In this document: positions 1,357 to 43,672 of the stretch, in pieces | How positions within the stretch are numbered: position 1 is the stretch's first letter | Layout of the letters: the number at the start of each line of letters is the position of its first letter | Source: Candidatus Poribacteria bacterium | GTDB taxonomy: Bacteria > Poribacteria > WGA-4E > B28-G17 | DNA length: 48,156 nucleotides | Direction: 5' to 3' | Assembly (NCBI GenBank): GCA_021162805.1 | Contig: JAGGXZ010000063.1 | Span: forward strand, 1-48,156 | Made by a program: the position numbers and the translations under genes | Notes under the pieces: generated by a model | Seen by the model: only the letters and a program-made list of their open reading frames with translations | Databases searched by the model: none | Told to the model about the DNA's origin: nothing

Positions 1357-2390
1357 TCCACCTTAACCGTTTGTCCCGTCTCAGCGGATTCCATGGCGGC
1401 ATCGAAGACGACCATACATTTACGGCACTCCTCCGGTTTGACGGCGAGCTCAGCGCCCTTGTTGAGCACGTCCGAGATGTTCTGATAGTAGGATTTCCAA
1501 CTTCCCCTGACCGGCTCGACGACGATCTCTTTCCACTCGCCGTCCACCTTCGTCCAGACCCGAGCGTGATGTTCGGGCGGCTCCTCGGCCGCGTCTATGT
1601 TCCCCTGCACCATCGGCCTCTCCTGGGGATCGAGGCCGAATTTGATTATCGAGCCCTCATCGCCCAGCACGAACCATCTGGGCTTTTGGGTTTTGGCGAG
1701 GTTGCTGATCTGGACCTCATAGATCAACCCGTCCTTGAACCTCATCACTAGTCTTCCAAAGTTTCCGATATCAACTCCTTCCCACTTGTGTAGATCCTGA
1801 ATCTCACAATAGACCGAATCTATCTGATATCTCCCGAAGATCATCGCCTGATCGACCAGGTGCGCGCCCCAGTCGTACAGTATCCCGCCGCTCATCTCCT
1901 TTATCCCGCGCCATCCCCTCGGCGGGCCGTAGCCCATGATGGCCGTCTCGAAGCGATAGGGCTTCCCTATCATCCCGTCCTCTATGATCTTCCTGACCGT
2001 GAGGTAATCCCAATCCCATCTGCGGTTATGGAAGACGCTCAGCATGACGTTATTCCTGCGCGCCGCCTCGATCATGGCGTCGGCCTCAGCGGCGTTCATG
2101 CACATGACCTTATCGGTGACGACGTGTTTGCCGGCGTCCATCGCCTTGATCGAAAGCTCAGCGTGGGTATAGTGCGGAGTGGCGATGATGACCAGGTCCA
2201 CGTTATCATCGGCTATCAGTTGATCTATGGTCTCATAGGTCTTGACGCCGTAATCCCTCTCGGCCTGGGCACGCCTTTCAGGCGAACGAGATGAGACGGC
2301 ATAAAGGTTCAATCCCTCGGTGAGGCTCACGAGATATGCGTGGAAACATCTCCCCGCATATCCATAACCGACTATTCCCACGTTTACCAT
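1350..2390 (-). CDS. Gfo/Idh/MocA family oxidoreductase
   Basis: Second family member, 346 residues, only distantly similar to the one at 278. The nucleotide-binding motif is GIVGYGYAG at residues 5-13. The usual EKP position reads TDKVMC, and the second-domain signature is SGGILYDWGAHLVDQ. ATG 2390 has a strong GAGGAGG site 8-9 bases upstream. It lies 75 bp downstream of the PorV-like gene on the same strand and may be read through from it or from an extended -10 box at 2457. Cytoplasmic dehydrogenase of unknown sugar-like substrate. Confidence 0.9.
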   Translation of the reverse strand: MVNVGIVGYGYAGRCFHAYLVSLTEGLNLYAVSSRSPERRAQAERDYGVKTYETIDQLIADDNVDLVIIATPHYTHAELSIKAMDAGKHVVTDKVMCMNAAEADAMIEAARRNNVMLSVFHNRRWDWDYLTVRKIIEDGMIGKPYRFETAIMGYGPPRGWRGIKEMSGGILYDWGAHLVDQAMIFGRYQIDSVYCEIQDLHKWEGVDIGNFGRLVMRFKDGLIYEVQISNLAKTQKPRWFVLGDEGSIIKFGLDPQERPMVQGNIDAAEEPPEHHARVWTKVDGEWKEIVVEPVRGSWKSYYQNISDVLNKGAELAVKPEECRKCMVVFDAAMESAETGQTVKVEG

Positions 2391-2456
2391 CTTTCAAACC
2401 TCCTCGTTAATCTCTAACTCATTACCCCTCAACCACCGTTCCCCTAACCATCCTAA

Positions 2457-2465
2457 ATTATATCA
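2457..2465 (-). promoter_or_regulatory. Possible extended -10 promoter for the oxidoreductase at 1350-2390
   Basis: Reading the minus strand, TGATATAAT is an exact extended -10 (TGnTATAAT), about 65 bases before ATG 2390. The -35 position 17 bases upstream (TGGGAT) is poor. It lies just after the stop of the PorV-like gene. Confidence 0.4.
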
Positions 2466-3428
2466 TTATTCGACCCCATATCCCACGCTCACGAAGTGTC
2501 TCATGCCTGTGGGCTCAAATCTGAGTGCGTAATCGAAAAGCAGCGCTCCACCTCCCGAAAGCTTCCATCTGAAACCGAATCCCATCGCCGGTTTGATGTT
2601 GAGCTTTGTGAGCTCCCCCGGCGACAGGCCCGTCTTTCCCCCTTCGATGTATACGTCGGCCATTCCGCCCCTTATGAAGAAGGCGTTTCCCTCCTCCTCG
2701 CCGGCCATCTCAGCTCCGATGGACAGCTTTAATGGTTCACCTTTAACTTGGATCAAATCCGCCTCCACCTTAAAGGTGGAATTGTAGCTCTTGAACGAGT
2801 AAAGCAGACCTATCCTCGCTGAAGGAGAGATCTCCTCCTCAACCTCGTCGCTCCATTTCAGTTTGGCCTTGCTTCGGAACGCAATGCCGAGGCGCAGGGA
2901 TTCATCCGGTTGATAGATCGCCCCAAGCGTGATACCGTATCCGTTTCCGCTTTCATTTATCCCCTCGCCTCGCATCCCCTGCCACAGATAAAATCCATTT
3001 CCCCCGATATAGAGAAGCCCCGATTTGTATCCCATCCCAATTGTAAGCGCCATCCTTTTATCGGAGAAGGTTCCGAGCCTCACTCCGGATTCGGAGTACG
3101 AATCGGCGGGACCGGAGTCGTAATAGAGCCCGCTAAGTCCTATCGTGCCCTGACCTTCCACCGGATATGCGCCGCTGAGCGTTATCAGATTTGTGCCTAA
3201 GGTTTTAAGCCTTCCCTCCAGTTTCACCTCAGGGTTTTTCATCGCCCCCATCCCGGCCGGGTTCCAGAAAACGGCGGTGGGGTCATCCGCCATGGAGACG
3301 AAGGCTCCGCCGAGCGAGATCTGCTTTATGCCGCTCCCTATCTCAAAGGGTGATGGAGCTCCTGCCTCGGCCGATATCGCATGGCCCAGCATCATAAGGC
3401 AAAGCGAAATCACGATGGTACGCGACAT
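2466..3428 (-). CDS. PorV/UPF0164-like outer-membrane beta-barrel protein
   Basis: A 320-residue protein with a signal peptide (hydrophobic residues about 5-18, then AEAGAP). It continues with ISLGGAFVSMADDPTAVFWNPAGM, the N-terminal signature of the UPF0164/PorV-PorQ/FadL-like barrel group. Alternating strands follow up to a C-terminal aromatic strand (FVSVGYGVE). In Bacteroidetes, PorV shuttles type IX secretion substrates. That role here is only inferred, from the adjacent secreted protein with a FlgD-Ig C-terminus. ATG 3428 is preferred because GAGGTG precedes it; an in-frame GTG at 3434 is possible. It is 9 bp after the upstream stop, so almost certainly cotranscribed. Confidence 0.8.
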   Translation of the reverse strand: MSRTIVISLCLMMLGHAISAEAGAPSPFEIGSGIKQISLGGAFVSMADDPTAVFWNPAGMGAMKNPEVKLEGRLKTLGTNLITLSGAYPVEGQGTIGLSGLYYDSGPADSYSESGVRLGTFSDKRMALTIGMGYKSGLLYIGGNGFYLWQGMRGEGINESGNGYGITLGAIYQPDESLRLGIAFRSKAKLKWSDEVEEEISPSARIGLLYSFKSYNSTFKVEADLIQVKGEPLKLSIGAEMAGEEEGNAFFIRGGMADVYIEGGKTGLSPGELTKLNIKPAMGFGFRWKLSGGGALLFDYALRFEPTGMRHFVSVGYGVE

Positions 3429-24745: not shown

Positions 24746-25531
24746 TCACCTTCTGAGGTTATTTGCTATGTTCAACATCTCGTCGGCCGCCTGGATCGCC
24801 TTTGAGTTAACCTCATAGGCGCGCTGTGATATGATCAGGTTGACCATCTCATCCACGATCTTCACATTGGACATCTCCAACATCCCCTGTTCGATATATC
24901 CGAATCCGTTCTCGCCGGGCTTTCCGGAGATCGGCTGTCCTGAGGCCGCTGTCTCCTCGTATAGTCCTCTGCCTATGTGATGTAATCCCGCCGGGTTGAT
25001 GAACTTCACCAGTTCTATCCTGCCGATGACCATTCCGTCCGGTTGATCCGGCAATTTGACCTGAACGGTGCCGTCCTCGGAGATGAAGACATCTGTGGCG
25101 TCTTTGGGAATGATTATCTCCGGTTCAAGCGGCAGGCCGTGCGCCGTAACTATTCTGCCTTGTGCGTCCTTCTTGAAGGCACCGTTTCGCGTGTAGACGG
25201 TAGCATTGCCGAGCTTGATCTTGAAAAACCCGTCGCCTTGAATGGCGAGATCGAGCTTATTTCCCGTCTCCTGAAGGTCACCGACGGTGAATATGCTCTG
25301 TGTGGAGGTCAGCTTCGTTCCATGGCCCAGCTCTATTCCCGTCGGAATCTGGGCGTTTGAGATGTTCATGGCCCCGGCCGGCTTTACGACCTGATAGATC
25401 AGATCCTCGAAATCCGGACGTAGCCTTTTGAAGGCTATTGTATTGACGTTTGAGATGTTGTTGGCTATGACGTCCATATTGGTCTGCTGTGCCTTCATTC
25501 CTGAAGCGGCGGACCAAAGCGCTCTCAGCAT
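24746..25531 (-). CDS. flgG: Distal rod protein FlgG
   Basis: A 261-residue rod protein. N-terminal LWSAASGMKAQQTNMDVIANNISNVNTIAFKRLRPDFEDLIYQ, central LDLAIQGDGFFKI and TRNGAFKKDAQGRIVTAHGLPL, C-terminal MVNLIISQRAYEVNSKAIQAADEMLNIANNLRR. Length and blocks are canonical for FlgG. Secreted through the flagellar export gate. Confidence 0.96.
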   Translation of the reverse strand: MLRALWSAASGMKAQQTNMDVIANNISNVNTIAFKRLRPDFEDLIYQVVKPAGAMNISNAQIPTGIELGHGTKLTSTQSIFTVGDLQETGNKLDLAIQGDGFFKIKLGNATVYTRNGAFKKDAQGRIVTAHGLPLEPEIIIPKDATDVFISEDGTVQVKLPDQPDGMVIGRIELVKFINPAGLHHIGRGLYEETAASGQPISGKPGENGFGYIEQGMLEMSNVKIVDEMVNLIISQRAYEVNSKAIQAADEMLNIANNLRR

Positions 25532-25543
25532 TTTCGATCCCTC

Positions 25544-26305
25544 CTATGCTTTGACAAATTCGCTGAGCTGTTGAACTGTCGAGTCGATGGCCTGGATCGC
25601 CTTTTGATAGCTCTCGTAATTCCTGAGAGCCTCTATCATCTGAACCATCTCTTTGACGATATCGACGTTTGAGTCCTCCAGGTAACCCTGCAGCACCTCG
25701 ACGTTGGGCGGTAGAGGTTGGAGGTTCGATGGGGCGACCAGCAGCCCACCTCCTTCCTTGCTCAACCCGCCACCGCCTCTGGTCGGGGGGAAATCGACGA
25801 TCAGGAATCTATCCACAACGCGACCGTTAACCCTGATCGTTCCATCCTTACTCACCTGGATCTGCGATCCTACCCCCAGGTTTATCGGCCCGTTCTGCCC
25901 CAACACCTTATACCCGTTCCTCGTGACCAGATAGCCGTTGGCGTCGATCGAAAAACGCCCATCGCGCGTGTATCTGACACCACTCGGCGTTTGAATCGAG
26001 AAGTATCCCTCGCCGTTTATGGCGAAATCCAGCGGATTTCCGGTTTGTCTGAGACTCCCTTCCGAGAGATCCACGCTGTATCTCGTCAACATCATCCACG
26101 GCATCTCGCCGGCATTTCGCAGGGGTCTGGAGGCGAGGATGATCCTCTGAGGTGGGACGTAGTTCGTCGGCAGAGCGAGATTGAACCCTATCCTTCCTTT
26201 CTTATACCCGATCGAGTCGGCGTTCGCAAGGTTATTGGCTATGACGTCGAGGCGCATCTGCTCGTAAAGCATACCTTGAGCGGCCTCATAAAGCCCCCTC
26301 ACCAT
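25544..26305 (-). CDS. flgF: Rod protein FlgF
   Basis: A 253-residue rod protein. N-terminal AAQGMLYEQMRLDVIANNLANADSIGYKK, central PLDFAINGEGYFSIQTPSGVRYTRDGRFSIDANGYLVTRNGYKVLG, C-terminal MVQMIEALRNYESYQKAIQAIDSTVQQLSEFV. It is closer to FlgF than FlgG by size and position, but the two are easily confused. It is first gene of the rod/ring/chemotaxis run and lies about 50 bases downstream of a sigma-54 promoter. Confidence 0.9.
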   Translation of the reverse strand: MVRGLYEAAQGMLYEQMRLDVIANNLANADSIGYKKGRIGFNLALPTNYVPPQRIILASRPLRNAGEMPWMMLTRYSVDLSEGSLRQTGNPLDFAINGEGYFSIQTPSGVRYTRDGRFSIDANGYLVTRNGYKVLGQNGPINLGVGSQIQVSKDGTIRVNGRVVDRFLIVDFPPTRGGGGLSKEGGGLLVAPSNLQPLPPNVEVLQGYLEDSNVDIVKEMVQMIEALRNYESYQKAIQAIDSTVQQLSEFVKA

Positions 26306-26355: not shown

Positions 26356-26371
26356 TGCAATTAGCATGCCA
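26356..26371 (-). promoter_or_regulatory. Sigma-54 (-24/-12) promoter of the flgF operon
   Basis: On the minus strand, TGGCATGCTAATTGCA matches the RpoN consensus TGGCAC-N5-TTGCA with one mismatch and the required GG-N10-GC spacing. Transcription should begin about 12 bases on, leaving a ~40-base leader to ATG 26305. A perfect palindrome, TATCAACTGATA (26412-26423), about 40 bp upstream is a possible activator site. Confidence 0.8.
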
Positions 26372-38655: not shown

Positions 38656-40668
38656 CTATACGATGGCGATCGATTCGCTAAGTGTCCGAACCAAGAGGGG
38701 ATCAAACCTGCCCCCTGCCTCCTGATGCAGCAGTTTCAGAGCTTCATTCGGTCTCATGGCCGGCCGATATCCCCTTGGAGATGTCATTGCAGCGTATGCT
38801 TCAGCCACGGCGATTATCCTGGACTCAAGCGACATGCCGTTTGAGTCGAATCTGTTATGATGATGTGATACCGGCTCAGCATAGGGCCTTAGGAACCTCA
38901 CCCCGTTGAAAATCCTGGTGATGGTCTTCGCCCTCTCCTCCACGATTTTGCGATCTGATTCATCGAGCGGCCCCGGCTTGGATACGATCTCATCCATACC
39001 TATCTCGCCAAGCTCTCGGATCATACCCAGTTCCGTTAAGTAGTCGATCTTCTCGGAGGGCAGGCTCAACCTCTCGGCGATCTTACGAGCGTATTCTGAG
39101 ACCTTCTTGGAATAGCCGTTTAGGAATGCAGATCGTTTCTCCAGAACTTCGCATAATTTCCCCACACCTTCCACATATCTGACCCGCATATCTGTCATTA
39201 CCTCAGCGATGGCGGCGGCGAACTCCTCCACGATTTCTTCCTCATGTTCGCTAAACGGCTGAGCATCTGATCTATCGGTGAGATTTATAACTCCGATCTT
39301 AAGATCCCCCTTGAGGATCGGAGCGCAGATGAAGGAGTTGGACCGATATCCTCTTCCGTTTCCAGTGGAGATCCCCTTCTTCAGAGCGTCATCAGCCCAT
39401 ATAACTTTCCCTTCCATCAATGCCTTCCCCGCTATACCTTCACCTATCTTGACCTTCACCTTTCTTCTCACCGACTCATTAAGGTTCTTCGTCACCTCGA
39501 ACTTAAGGACCTCCTCCTTAGGATCGAGGATCATCAGAGATGCCCTCTCCACATGTAGGGCTTGAGTCAACATCGTCAGAGCAAGCCAGAGGAACTCGTC
39601 CGTTAGTGAGTCCCAGGCATTCGTTCGGCTGTAGCCTAGAGGCGGTTTGACGTTGAAGAGATCAACCAACTCCTTCAGGTCAGTTTCGGAGGGGATTTGG
39701 ATCGCATTGCCTCCCATTTCTTTCCCCCTTCCCATCGCCCTTTGAGCGAGGTTCACCAGCGCTTCCGGGTGATCCACATCATCGGGACAGGTTGCCACTC
39801 CAATCGTGAGGGAAGGGTGGTCGTTATCATCTCCGATTCTATCCATGATCCTCTGAGCGACTCTGATTGCTCCTTCTCTATCGGCCTTCGTCAGCAGAAC
39901 CAGGAACTCATCGCCTCCATATCTGCATATCGAATCTTCCGCCCTTATGCTCTCCTTGATCTTCGAGGCGATCTCACGAAGGATCCGATCGCCGATCCTA
40001 TAACCGTAACGTCTGTTGAAGTCATCGAATTCATCTAGATCGATGTAGATAAGAGAGGTGGGGATCTTATTTCGGCGCGAGAAGTTTATCTCCTTGCGGA
40101 GATGATCCAGGAAGACAGGATATCTATAGGTTCTGGTCACAGGATCGAAATAATCAGACGGAGCGGGAATCTGACGGAGATGAAGTATGGAATGGGCGGC
40201 CTTAATCCCGAATATCCTCGCCAGCTCCAGGTCCTCTTTGGAATAGGCGTTCGGTCGTTTCGATCCTATCTGGATCACGCCGACCGGATATCCATAGGAG
40301 CGCATCGATATGGCTAAGAGAGACCTCATATCCTTATCAAACGGATACAGATCTCCCTTATATTCCGTCAAATCCGGTATGTAAACGGGTTCTGTAGAAC
40401 GAAGCGTTGAGGCGGCAATTGTATTTGAGAGCGGTCTTGCCGGCCAAATGCCTTTCTCCCCTTCGATTGTCTTCAGGCTTAATTCCCCCTCATCGGAGTC
40501 CCAACTGAACACTGCACATAGGTCATAATTAAGTATCTCTCTCATAAGGTGAGGTAAAATCAGATATGCACCCTCCTCATCTCTGCTAAGCAAAATCGGT
40601 TCGATCTCAAACAGGAAGTTTATCTCCTCCGGCCTTTTGGACATCAATTCTTCCCTCAACAGTCCCAT
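38656..40668 (-). CDS. GAF-GGDEF-GAF protein with degenerate HD-GYP domain
   Basis: A 670-residue cytoplasmic regulator with no membrane helix. GAF-like domain (about 20-170), then GGDEF (about 185-330) with an intact RYGGDEF active site and an inhibitory RxxD exactly five residues before it (RAED). A second GAF domain follows (about 360-500), then an HD-GYP-like C-terminus (about 500-665). In the latter, the metal HD reads RE (GMIRELGEIGM), GHS is GYS, and GYP is altered (SPRGYRPAM), so phosphodiesterase activity looks lost. Predicted product-inhibited diguanylate cyclase. ATG 40668 has GGGGGA upstream; an upstream in-frame start at 40710 exists. Confidence 0.9.
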   Translation of the reverse strand: MGLLREELMSKRPEEINFLFEIEPILLSRDEEGAYLILPHLMREILNYDLCAVFSWDSDEGELSLKTIEGEKGIWPARPLSNTIAASTLRSTEPVYIPDLTEYKGDLYPFDKDMRSLLAISMRSYGYPVGVIQIGSKRPNAYSKEDLELARIFGIKAAHSILHLRQIPAPSDYFDPVTRTYRYPVFLDHLRKEINFSRRNKIPTSLIYIDLDEFDDFNRRYGYRIGDRILREIASKIKESIRAEDSICRYGGDEFLVLLTKADREGAIRVAQRIMDRIGDDNDHPSLTIGVATCPDDVDHPEALVNLAQRAMGRGKEMGGNAIQIPSETDLKELVDLFNVKPPLGYSRTNAWDSLTDEFLWLALTMLTQALHVERASLMILDPKEEVLKFEVTKNLNESVRRKVKVKIGEGIAGKALMEGKVIWADDALKKGISTGNGRGYRSNSFICAPILKGDLKIGVINLTDRSDAQPFSEHEEEIVEEFAAAIAEVMTDMRVRYVEGVGKLCEVLEKRSAFLNGYSKKVSEYARKIAERLSLPSEKIDYLTELGMIRELGEIGMDEIVSKPGPLDESDRKIVEERAKTITRIFNGVRFLRPYAEPVSHHHNRFDSNGMSLESRIIAVAEAYAAMTSPRGYRPAMRPNEALKLLHQEAGGRFDPLLVRTLSESIAIV

Positions 40669-40848
40669 CTTTTCCCCCGGCAGGTGAGATGATCGCCCCT
40701 GGCCTTTCATCAGAGGAAATGGCTCAGGGGAAGCTTACCCTAAATTTAGCAAAAACCATTCCAGGAATGATAAGCTGAATTTACCGAGTTTGACAAACCT
40801 TCCTCCCAATCCCAGTATGTAGATAGTTTACCAAAGAGGGCAATTATG

Positions 40849-41597: not shown

Positions 41598-41669
41598 GTT
41601 CGCTTCCATGGGCAGGATATATGGATTTCACAGGGGAGCTTTACCAGGCAAATCCAATGACATGAAAGA

Positions 41670-41695
41670 AAAAGGGCGGCTTCAGCCGCCCTTTT
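41670..41695 (-). terminator. Intrinsic terminator of hsp20
   Basis: AAAAGGGCGGC, loop of four, GCCGCCCTTTT: an 11-bp stem with GC-rich core followed on the minus strand by TTTCTTTC. It lies 25 bases after the hsp20 stop and looks symmetric, so it could also act on plus-strand transcripts. Confidence 0.85.
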
Positions 41696-41720
41696 CGCGT
41701 GCGCCGTTTTTCCCGCGTTA

Positions 41721-42179
41721 TCAGCTCTCACCCTCGCCGACCTCTATCTTTATCTCCTTCGGTTTAGCCTCTTCGGCCTTCGGTATCACCACCCTCAGCA
41801 CACCGTCCTTGAAGGTAGCTTTGGCCTTATCGGCCTGAACGACGGTCGGCAGGGTGAAGCTTCTCTGGAACGCTCCGTAGCTTCGCTCTATTCTGTGGTA
41901 CTGCTCCTCTTTAACCTCTTTCTCCTGCTTCTTTTCGCCCTTTATGGTCAGCACATTGTCGGTTATAGACACGCTTACATCATCCTGCTTGATCCCCGGA
42001 AGTTCGGCTTCAACGATTATATCGTCTTTGGTTTCCCTTATATCCACGCTCGGAGTCCACCCCGTCTCGAAGACATCCAACCTGGACGGGAACCTGCCGA
42101 AGAACTCATCGAAAAGCCTGTTAACCTCCTCCTGAATGGAGAGAAGATCCCTCATCGGCCTCCATCTCATCAGGGCCAT
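41721..42179 (-). CDS. Small heat-shock protein Hsp20
   Basis: A 152-residue alpha-crystallin family holdase. The N-terminal arm has MRDLLSIQEEVNRLFDEFFGRFPSR. The crystallin domain (about 43-140) shows WTPSVDIRETKDDIIVEAELPGIKQDDVSVSITDNVLTIKGEKKQE and FQRSFTLPTVVQADKAKATFKDGVLRVVIPK. The C-terminal tail lacks an obvious IxI motif beyond IKIEV. It binds unfolding proteins in the cytoplasm. ATG 42179 follows a perfect AAGGAGGTGA that is partly paired in a leader hairpin. Transcribed from an apparent sigma-54 promoter. Confidence 0.95.
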   Translation of the reverse strand: MALMRWRPMRDLLSIQEEVNRLFDEFFGRFPSRLDVFETGWTPSVDIRETKDDIIVEAELPGIKQDDVSVSITDNVLTIKGEKKQEKEVKEEQYHRIERSYGAFQRSFTLPTVVQADKAKATFKDGVLRVVIPKAEEAKPKEIKIEVGEGES

Positions 42180-42186
42180 GTCAATC

Positions 42187-42203
42187 ACCTCCTTAGCTGA
42201 GGT
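42187..42203 (-). promoter_or_regulatory. Hairpin sequestering the hsp20 ribosome binding site
   Basis: In the hsp20 leader, ACCTC (42199-42203), a 7-base loop, and GAGGT (42187-42191) can pair, burying most of the AAGGAGGTGA Shine-Dalgarno. The stem has only 5 bp, so it would melt readily on warming. This is the general logic of RNA thermometers upstream of small heat-shock genes. No named class (ROSE, fourU) is recognised. Confidence 0.5.
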
Positions 42204-42235
42204 TTTTTCGGGCCAATCCGCTCGCTATATTACAG

Positions 42236-42251
42236 AGCAATTTGCGTGCCA
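42236..42251 (-). promoter_or_regulatory. Sigma-54 (-24/-12) promoter of hsp20
   Basis: On the minus strand TGGCACGCAAATTGCT matches TGGCACG-N4-TTGCW at every defined position, with GG-N10-GC spacing. Predicted start ~42225, leader ~45 bases. It lies in the 197-bp gap after hisD. Confidence 0.82.
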
Positions 42252-42303
42252 TCTCCTCGATGCTGAGAGAACCGGTCTCGTTCGCTTTCCCCTGTGGATC
42301 AGC

Positions 42304-42316
42304 TGTCATTATGACA
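42304..42316. promoter_or_regulatory. Palindrome upstream of the hsp20 sigma-54 promoter
   Basis: TGTCATTATGACA is a perfect 6-1-6 inverted repeat 53 bp upstream of the -24 element, a suitable place for an enhancer-binding activator dimer. The protein that binds it is unknown. Confidence 0.5.
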
Positions 42317-42376
42317 AACCCTGTCCGGGTTCAGTTTGCCATTTTGACCGCTTCACTCCGTATATTATCGCTATCT

Positions 42377-43672
42377 TCAGCTTAATCTTTCCCTTATCGC
42401 CTCGGCGTGCATCGGCAACCCCTCGGCCTCGGCGAGGGTGATGACGGTTTCGCTCAGCCCTTCAAGCCCCTCCCTCGTCAGATACTGGAAGGTGGGCTTT
42501 TTGATGAAATCGTCCACCGACAGCCCACTGAACATCCTCGCGCACCGACCTGTCGGCAGGACGTGATTCGTGCCCGACGCGTAATCGCCGACGGGAACAG
42601 GAGCGTACCTACCCAAGAAAATCGATCCAGCATGCTTTATCCTGGGGAGTAACCCCAACGGATCCTCGGTGAGTATCTCCAGATGTTCGGCCGCATACTG
42701 GTTGGTGAAACGGATCGCCTCATCCATATCGTCCGCTATCAACACGGCCGAGTTTCTCCTCAGCGCCTCCAGGATTATCTCCCCTCTGGCGGCCGAGCGG
42801 AGCCTTTCGTCTATGATTCGACACACCTCTCCGGCCAGATCCTCGGAGGTTGTGATCAACACAGCGGCGGCATCGGCGTCGTGCTCCGCCTGAGAGAGCA
42901 TGTCCACGGCGACCAGGTTCGGATCGGCGGCCTGATCGGCCAGGATAAGCACCTCGCTCGGTCCGGCGGGCGAATCTATATCGACCAAGCCGAACACAGC
43001 CATCTTGGCCGCGGTGACGTATTTGCCGCCCGGGCCGACGATCTTATCCACCTTTGGGACGGTCTCCGTGCCGTGTGCCATGCTCCCTATGGCCCACGGC
43101 CCGCCTATCTTGAAAACATGGTCTGCCCCGACGATATCCGCCGCTACAAGTATGGCGGGATTGACGGACATCCCCTCCCCCGGAGGGGTACAGATGACGA
43201 TCCTCTCAACTCCGGCGACCTTAGCAGGGATGAGGTTCATAAGCACGCTCGATGGATATGCGGCCTGTCTTCCAGGGACATATGCCCCGACGGCCTCGAG
43301 TGCCCGATACAGCCTGCCCGCTATTACCCCTTTTGAAACCTCCACCGCCCACATCTCACGCTCAAGCTGAGATCTATGGAACCTCTCGATGTTGACGGCG
43401 GCCCTTTTGAGGTGATCCACCACCTTGGGGCTGATCCTCTCATATCCCCTCTCGATCTCATCTCGAGTGACGATCAGATCTGAGGGTGTTATGTCCTGTT
43501 TATACTTTCTGTAACGCTCAAGCGTAGGGACATCCCCTTCATCCCGAATTCGATCGACGATCTCTTTGACCTCGGCGAATATATCGGAGATATCCTCCAT
43601 GGATCTCTGAAGTATCGATCGCATTCTATCCTGGGATATCTCGCTGAGCCGTTCGGGTTTCAGTATCATCAT
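42377..43672 (-). CDS. hisD: Histidinol dehydrogenase HisD
   Basis: A 431-residue zinc enzyme that oxidises L-histidinol to histidine in two NAD-dependent steps. Motifs: [25 protein letters not shown] (about 131-155), [11 protein letters not shown] (about 215), [14 protein letters not shown] (about 236), the catalytic-region [16 protein letters not shown] (about 260), and YAAEHLEI with [23 protein letters not shown] near the end. The start overlaps the capD-like stop (ATGA). No other his gene is in the window, so the histidine genes are scattered. Confidence 0.96.

Follow-up and report, generated by a model that had tools for sequence, protein, structure and literature searches.

The hsp20 gene of the window (the whole stretch of DNA analysed, 48,156 nucleotides of a Candidatus Poribacteria bacterium, contig JAGGXZ010000063.1) very probably belongs to a phylum-wide chaperone regulon, predicted to be run by sigma-54 together with an enhancer-binding protein at paired sites. 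Bacterial heat-shock control usually relies on sigma-32-type factors, on the repressors HrcA (at CIRCE), HspR or CtsR, or on RNA thermometers. The sequences suggest that, in this phylum, an ATP-dependent activator switch governs a whole protein-folding stress response in place of these regulators. The heat-shock character of the regulon was judged from its gene content (hsp20, dnaK, groESL, clpB and dnaJ).

The hsp20 locus and its upstream elements

The features of the locus, in window coordinates, are as follows.

42377..43672, minus strand: hisD (histidinol dehydrogenase; Pfam Histidinol_dh, 4e-160), the upstream neighbour, outside the hsp20 unit
42337..42349, no strand assigned: distal palindrome GGTCAAAATGGCA with one mismatch, 33 nt away from the proximal palindrome; second putative enhancer
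42304..42316, no strand assigned: proximal palindrome TGTCATAATGACA, 52 nt from the -24 element on its upstream side; putative enhancer to which an activator would bind
42236..42251, minus strand: sigma-54 -24/-12 promoter element TGGCACGCAAATTGCT, assigned by consensus match and GG-N10-GC spacing
41721..42179, minus strand: hsp20, small heat-shock protein of 152 aa (Pfam HSP20, 7e-25, and translation)
41669..41696, minus strand: terminator-like hairpin directly 3' of hsp20, with a 12-pair stem and a T tail

The better start of hsp20 is the ATG at 42179, with a GGAGG ribosome-binding site at 42192-42188; the first in-frame GTG is at 42188. The gap upstream of the gene, described in an earlier note on this DNA as a real intergenic one, is bounded by the end of hisD at 42377 and the hsp20 start at 42179/42188, both on the minus strand. 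Since the terminator-like hairpin directly follows it, hsp20 looks like a single-gene unit. Two genes downstream, a 684-aa protein with GGDEF, GAF and HD domains is encoded at 38656-40710 (minus strand).

The earlier note had claimed a full match to the RpoN consensus 45-60 bases before hsp20. Indeed, TGGCACGCAAATTGCT agrees at every defined position, with the GG-N10-GC spacing intact, and sits 56 nt ahead of the ATG at 42179; from the standard distance to the -12 block, transcription is predicted to start near 42225. A one-mismatch search of the whole window returned two matches against 0.84 expected, which is not significant by itself. The only other near-match, TGGCATGCTAATTGCA (26356-26371, minus strand), is likely a sigma-54 promoter; the genes that follow it after about 50 nt (25544-26305 and 24746-25531, both minus strand) are of flagellar rod type, and flagellar rod genes are a textbook class of sigma-54 targets. 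The exact 16-mer TGGCACGCAAATTGCT occurs again elsewhere in the genome (G000:C168:52062-52077, L178), near the start of an open frame and without palindromes.

In 200,000 dinucleotide shuffles of the hisD-hsp20 gap, the element TGGCAY-N5-TTGC occurred 46 times, the upstream palindrome 21 times and the two together 0 times. Genome-wide matches to TGGCA-N-N5-TTGCW carry T (26), C (11), A (4) or G (4) at the free position, and this excess of T and C after TGGCA is the pyrimidine preference of real sigma-54 promoters. In the window's genome (G000), the gene for RpoN (PF00309, 8e-13) is on contig C144, where its neighbours are lptB-like and hpf-like genes, and more than 20 encoded activators carry the AAA+ domain that interacts with sigma-54.

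Conservation of the -24/-12 element upstream of orthologous hsp20 genes had been named beforehand as a point on which a sigma-54 reading could fail, and the element held up in the sister genus, where the hsp20 ortholog (G001:C54) has TGGCACGCAAATTGCA in the equivalent position. The second hsp20 operons of the window's genome and of the sister genus carry TGGCATACGGTTTGCA and TGGCACGTGTATTGCT, so that the element is conserved at four hsp20 loci in two genera. Four sequence features by which a sigma-54 promoter is recognized were found: -24/-12 blocks, an rpoN gene, activators with enhancer-like sites, and conservation before orthologous genes.

Transcription with sigma-54 depends on an ATP-driven activator bound at an enhancer, and the link to such an activator foreseen in the earlier note gains support, at the level of sequence, from the paired palindromes upstream of the element. 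In an alignment of eight promoters from the two genera, both palindromes and both promoter blocks are in register, with a degenerate distal palindrome at a sigma-70-family gene. In the sister genus, too, palindromes accompany the element before hsp20. Throughout the phylum, the proximal palindrome lies about 50-77 nt from the -24 block in nearly all promoters found, and 43 of 47 promoters have a further palindrome (at most two mismatches) no more than 60 nt upstream of the proximal one, compared with 6.5% in shuffles.

An RNA thermometer at the ribosome-binding site would offer a different main control, with the promoter secondary. A short stem, ACCTC...GAGGT, can be drawn over the hsp20 ribosome-binding site in the window; however, this stem was not seen in the sister genus, the accessibility predicted for the window barely responds to temperature (0.42 at 25 C and 0.45 at 60 C), and the Rfam thermometer families gave no match. 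We therefore rejected the thermometer, which we regard as extremely improbable, and retain the sigma-54 promoter as the probable point of control.

A probable chaperone regulon in the genome and the phylum

Pattern searches, from which all regulon counts given here come, located the element with palindromes at six loci of the window's genome.

Window, minus strand: hsp20; exact TGYCAWWWTGRCA and sigma-54 element
Contig C185: hsp20-hsp20 operon; exact TGYCAWWWTGRCA and sigma-54 element
Contig C81: clpB; exact TGYCAWWWTGRCA and sigma-54 element
Contig C3: operon of a receiver protein and dnaK; exact TGYCAWWWTGRCA and sigma-54 element
Contig C213: sigma-70-family factor; exact TGYCAWWWTGRCA and sigma-54 element
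Contig C199: groES-groEL; three one-mismatch palindrome copies and sigma-54 element

The 4.35 Mb genome contains six exact TGYCAWWWTGRCA sites, five of which stand before sigma-54 elements of chaperone or sigma-factor genes. The product of the C213 gene (L174 3823-5136, minus strand) is an RpoD-like member of the sigma-70 family that scores below the RpoH cut-off (119 versus 323 bits); its placement under a palindrome and a sigma-54 element makes a sigma cascade possible. A further sigma-54-like element, TGGCATGCTTCTTGCC, was noted at L198 1005-1020 (minus strand; G000:C166), between an activator gene and an apparent second sigma-70-family gene.

Searches of 85 genomes of the phylum extended the regulon beyond the two genera. 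The first pattern (TGTCA-N3-TGRCA, 50-80 nt, TGGCAY-N5-TTGC) gave 13 matches in 11 of the 85 genomes, with none for the reversed-pattern control, and each of the 13 stands ahead of dnaK (in many cases with a receiver-only gene in between), clpB, hsp20, dnaJ or a lone receiver gene, apart from a single one at a sigma-factor gene. A second pattern starting with TGCCA, which had not been used in the first search, gave 32 matches in 31 genomes, again with none in the control. Almost all of the 30 second-pattern loci inspected begin with clpB, a receiver gene and dnaK, groES-groEL or hsp20, the exceptions being two TIR-like genes and one locus broken by Ns right after the ATG. Pfam analysis of 55 downstream proteins, many of whose genes are covered only in part, identified 17 Clp_N, 12 HSP70, 13 receiver, 3 HSP20, 2 Cpn60 (GroEL), 2 Cpn10 (GroES), 1 DnaJ and 1 full sigma-70. 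The arrangement was found in seven families (f1, f3, f4, f6, f7, f8 and f10). These matches are not independent events, because related genomes, above all those of family f8, supply many of them, and many of the 85 genomes gave no match to the strict patterns. The guess that sigma-54 at small heat-shock genes may be a broader theme thus holds on a larger scale, also covering groESL, dnaK, clpB and dnaJ.

In the two TIR-like cases (L342 and L357, in G033 and G076, at about 1740-3020), the gene behind the palindrome and sigma-54 element encodes a ThsB-type TIR-like domain; it may be a defence gene that has come under the control used for the chaperones.

The palindromes might also be the site of an unrelated regulator or a nucleoid protein next to a genuine sigma-54 promoter. 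Short palindromes are bound by many transcription factors, and the activator role of those seen here is predicted; against this, the sites are paired upstream of the -24 block, which is the usual place of enhancers and far for simple repression, and palindromes with the element occur almost only before chaperone genes. We consider such an unrelated factor improbable, and the palindromes are treated below as candidate enhancers.

Ordinary heat-shock control of hsp20, by HrcA/CIRCE or from a sigma-32 or sigma-70 promoter, would make the RpoN match incidental. It has in its favor that the window's genome has HrcA and a CIRCE element at its hrcA-grpE-dnaK operon. However, neither CIRCE nor a sigma-70-type promoter was detected in the hsp20 gap, and among the loci of this genome that were examined, CIRCE was found only at hrcA. 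Moreover, the element and palindromes are conserved across the phylum, including families without HrcA: no HrcA was detected in the 64 genomes that make up families f7-f10, some of which have the sigma-54 arrangement in front of dnaK, groESL and clpB. Ordinary control is therefore very improbable, and sigma-54 with paired enhancers is the reading that we carry forward. Since HrcA and CIRCE stand at hrcA-grpE-dnaK, the two dnaK loci of the window's organism differ in their control elements; the presence of HrcA and CIRCE also rules out HrcA loss as the cause in this particular genome.

Signs of the arrangement were seen in other phyla. A sigma-54 element is present in 6 of 77 upstream regions of named hsp20 relatives, compared with 5 of 1560 random stretches. 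Two Zixibacteria have it complete: in one, two palindromes and the element precede an hsp20 gene followed by dnaK (L092/L300), and in the other the full arrangement precedes a tandem hsp20 pair (L097). Representatives of Gemmatimonadota, Krumholzibacteriota, Calescamantes, Coatesbacteria and BMS3Bbin03 have the element before hsp20 with at most one palindrome. The strict pattern matched nothing in 20 genomes of other phyla beyond the Zixibacteria hsp20-dnaK operon (L092/L300), and spread beyond the phylum is therefore suggested rather than established.

Candidate activator and proposed circuit

In the proposed mechanism, RNA polymerase with sigma-54 would transcribe hsp20 and the other chaperone genes. 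A hexameric AAA+ enhancer-binding protein would sit on the paired TGTCA-N3-TGACA palindromes that lie upstream of -24 and, once active, would use ATP to open the promoter. We infer from the shared sites that the palindromes would bind the activator, that one activator may serve all the promoters, and that the trigger would be protein-folding stress.

Candidates were compared in a tree, for which the bootstrap had not settled, of 99 activator sequences from six genomes that show the arrangement or traces of it. Of the small clades with support, just one (nine sequences, 99/81) draws on all six genomes. It has two branches in the window's phylum, and the window's genome has one paralogue of each. 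The first branch includes the NtrC-like protein G000:C183:16937-18322, which has matches at 51-78% identity in most families outside f8; the activator gene of this branch follows secF and a histidine kinase gene in several families, and the G030 counterpart is without a receiver. The second branch, which includes G000:C45:7590-8987, has lost the phosphoacceptor Asp. The gene of the clade member from Gemmatimonadota is followed by one for an HtrA/DegP-type protease. Outside this clade, one of the six G030 activators has its best-conserved full-length match in G000:C64:34013-35362, a two-component activator. The clade of the C183 and C45 proteins would be the likeliest source of the activator, ahead of the C64 protein, a tentative choice that is evenly poised at best and settles on neither branch.

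Other routes to the activator proved less useful. The hsp20 neighbourhoods of the named relatives contained a single activator near an hsp20 (L137), no activator gene had palindromes in the full arrangement upstream, and reciprocal best hits alone gave conflicting candidates, for which the 99-sequence tree was the more informative guide. NtrC-like activators whose receiver lacks the phosphoacceptor Asp were also observed at L211 2082-3509, L245 952-2484 and L263 1058-2422.

A gene for a receiver-only response regulator lies directly before dnaK at L171, L183, L186, L188 and L333-L341, with no such gene before dnaK in G027 (family f8). The phosphoacceptor Asp is kept in the four dnaK-linked receiver-only proteins that are covered in full. 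In three of four cases, the receiver that resembles them most, if weakly, belongs to the C183 protein. At a guess, the dnaK-linked protein may compete for the activator's phosphate and so provide negative feedback.

A more complete circuit can be sketched, although we think it rather unlikely to hold in every part. A histidine kinase and an NtrC-type activator, encoded next to the protein-export genes secDF, would sense folding or export stress and, by way of sigma-54 and the paired enhancers, induce the major chaperones; the dnaK-linked receiver-only protein would draw off phosphate. This circuit would be the main heat-shock control in the families without HrcA, with related versions in Zixibacteria and neighbouring phyla.

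If the regulon is real, a chaperone set under sigma-54 would represent another solution, one that leaks little when switched off and is tied directly to a signalling protein, and its control logic would be closer to that of the eukaryotic heat-shock factor. With the motif defined (two TGTCA-N3-TGACA sites, then about 50-77 nt, then TGGCAY-N5-TTGC), the regulon and its activator can be sought in uncultured phyla, and the regulon can be tested in a reporter strain.

Comparison with known systems

Among small heat-shock genes, ibpB of Escherichia coli is reportedly transcribed from a sigma-54 promoter; that case is one gene inside a sigma-32 regulon, whereas here a whole chaperone set appears to be involved. 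The HrcA/CIRCE regulon differs in that HrcA represses at CIRCE, which in the window's genome is present at another dnaK operon and absent from the hsp20 gap. In Myxococcus, the orphan response regulator MXAN_4468 is encoded upstream of groEL2 and works with HrcA in a sigma-32 system (PMC9040617). Both cases place a response regulator gene beside a chaperone gene that is duplicated; here, in contrast, the receiver gene lies with dnaK behind a sigma-54 element. The literature on Stigmatella hspA, Myxococcus HsfA and sigma-54 in Poribacteria yielded nothing usable on sigma-54 control of chaperones.

The Chlamydia hrcA-grpE operon is likewise a chaperone operon with a sigma-54 promoter, placed in tandem with an HrcA-repressed sigma-66 promoter, and rpoN goes down on heat shock (PMC8762339). 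The present case differs from these tandem promoters, as the hsp20 gap showed no sigma-70-type promoter and HrcA went undetected in many genomes.

The closest precedent is a survey in which a position matrix predicted genes for GroEL, GroES, GrpE, DnaJ, DnaK and IbpA-type proteins as sigma-54 targets in Bacteroidota and Planctomycetota (Carrera-Reyna et al. 2025, PMC12316311). Like the present work, it places sigma-54 at chaperone genes; it is statistical and concerns other phyla, and the accessible portion names no enhancer site or activator for these genes. In that portion, the sigma-54 dependence of GrpE and GroES is attributed to reference 80, which is a Blattabacterium genome paper, and we therefore treat this dependence as a prediction. 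The regulon of the Poribacteria phylum is defined instead by paired palindromes in register. Thus, sigma-54 control of chaperones has already been described or predicted elsewhere, whereas a dedicated paired enhancer across the chaperone set appears to be new, because these precedents, to the extent that they are available, describe none common to such a set.
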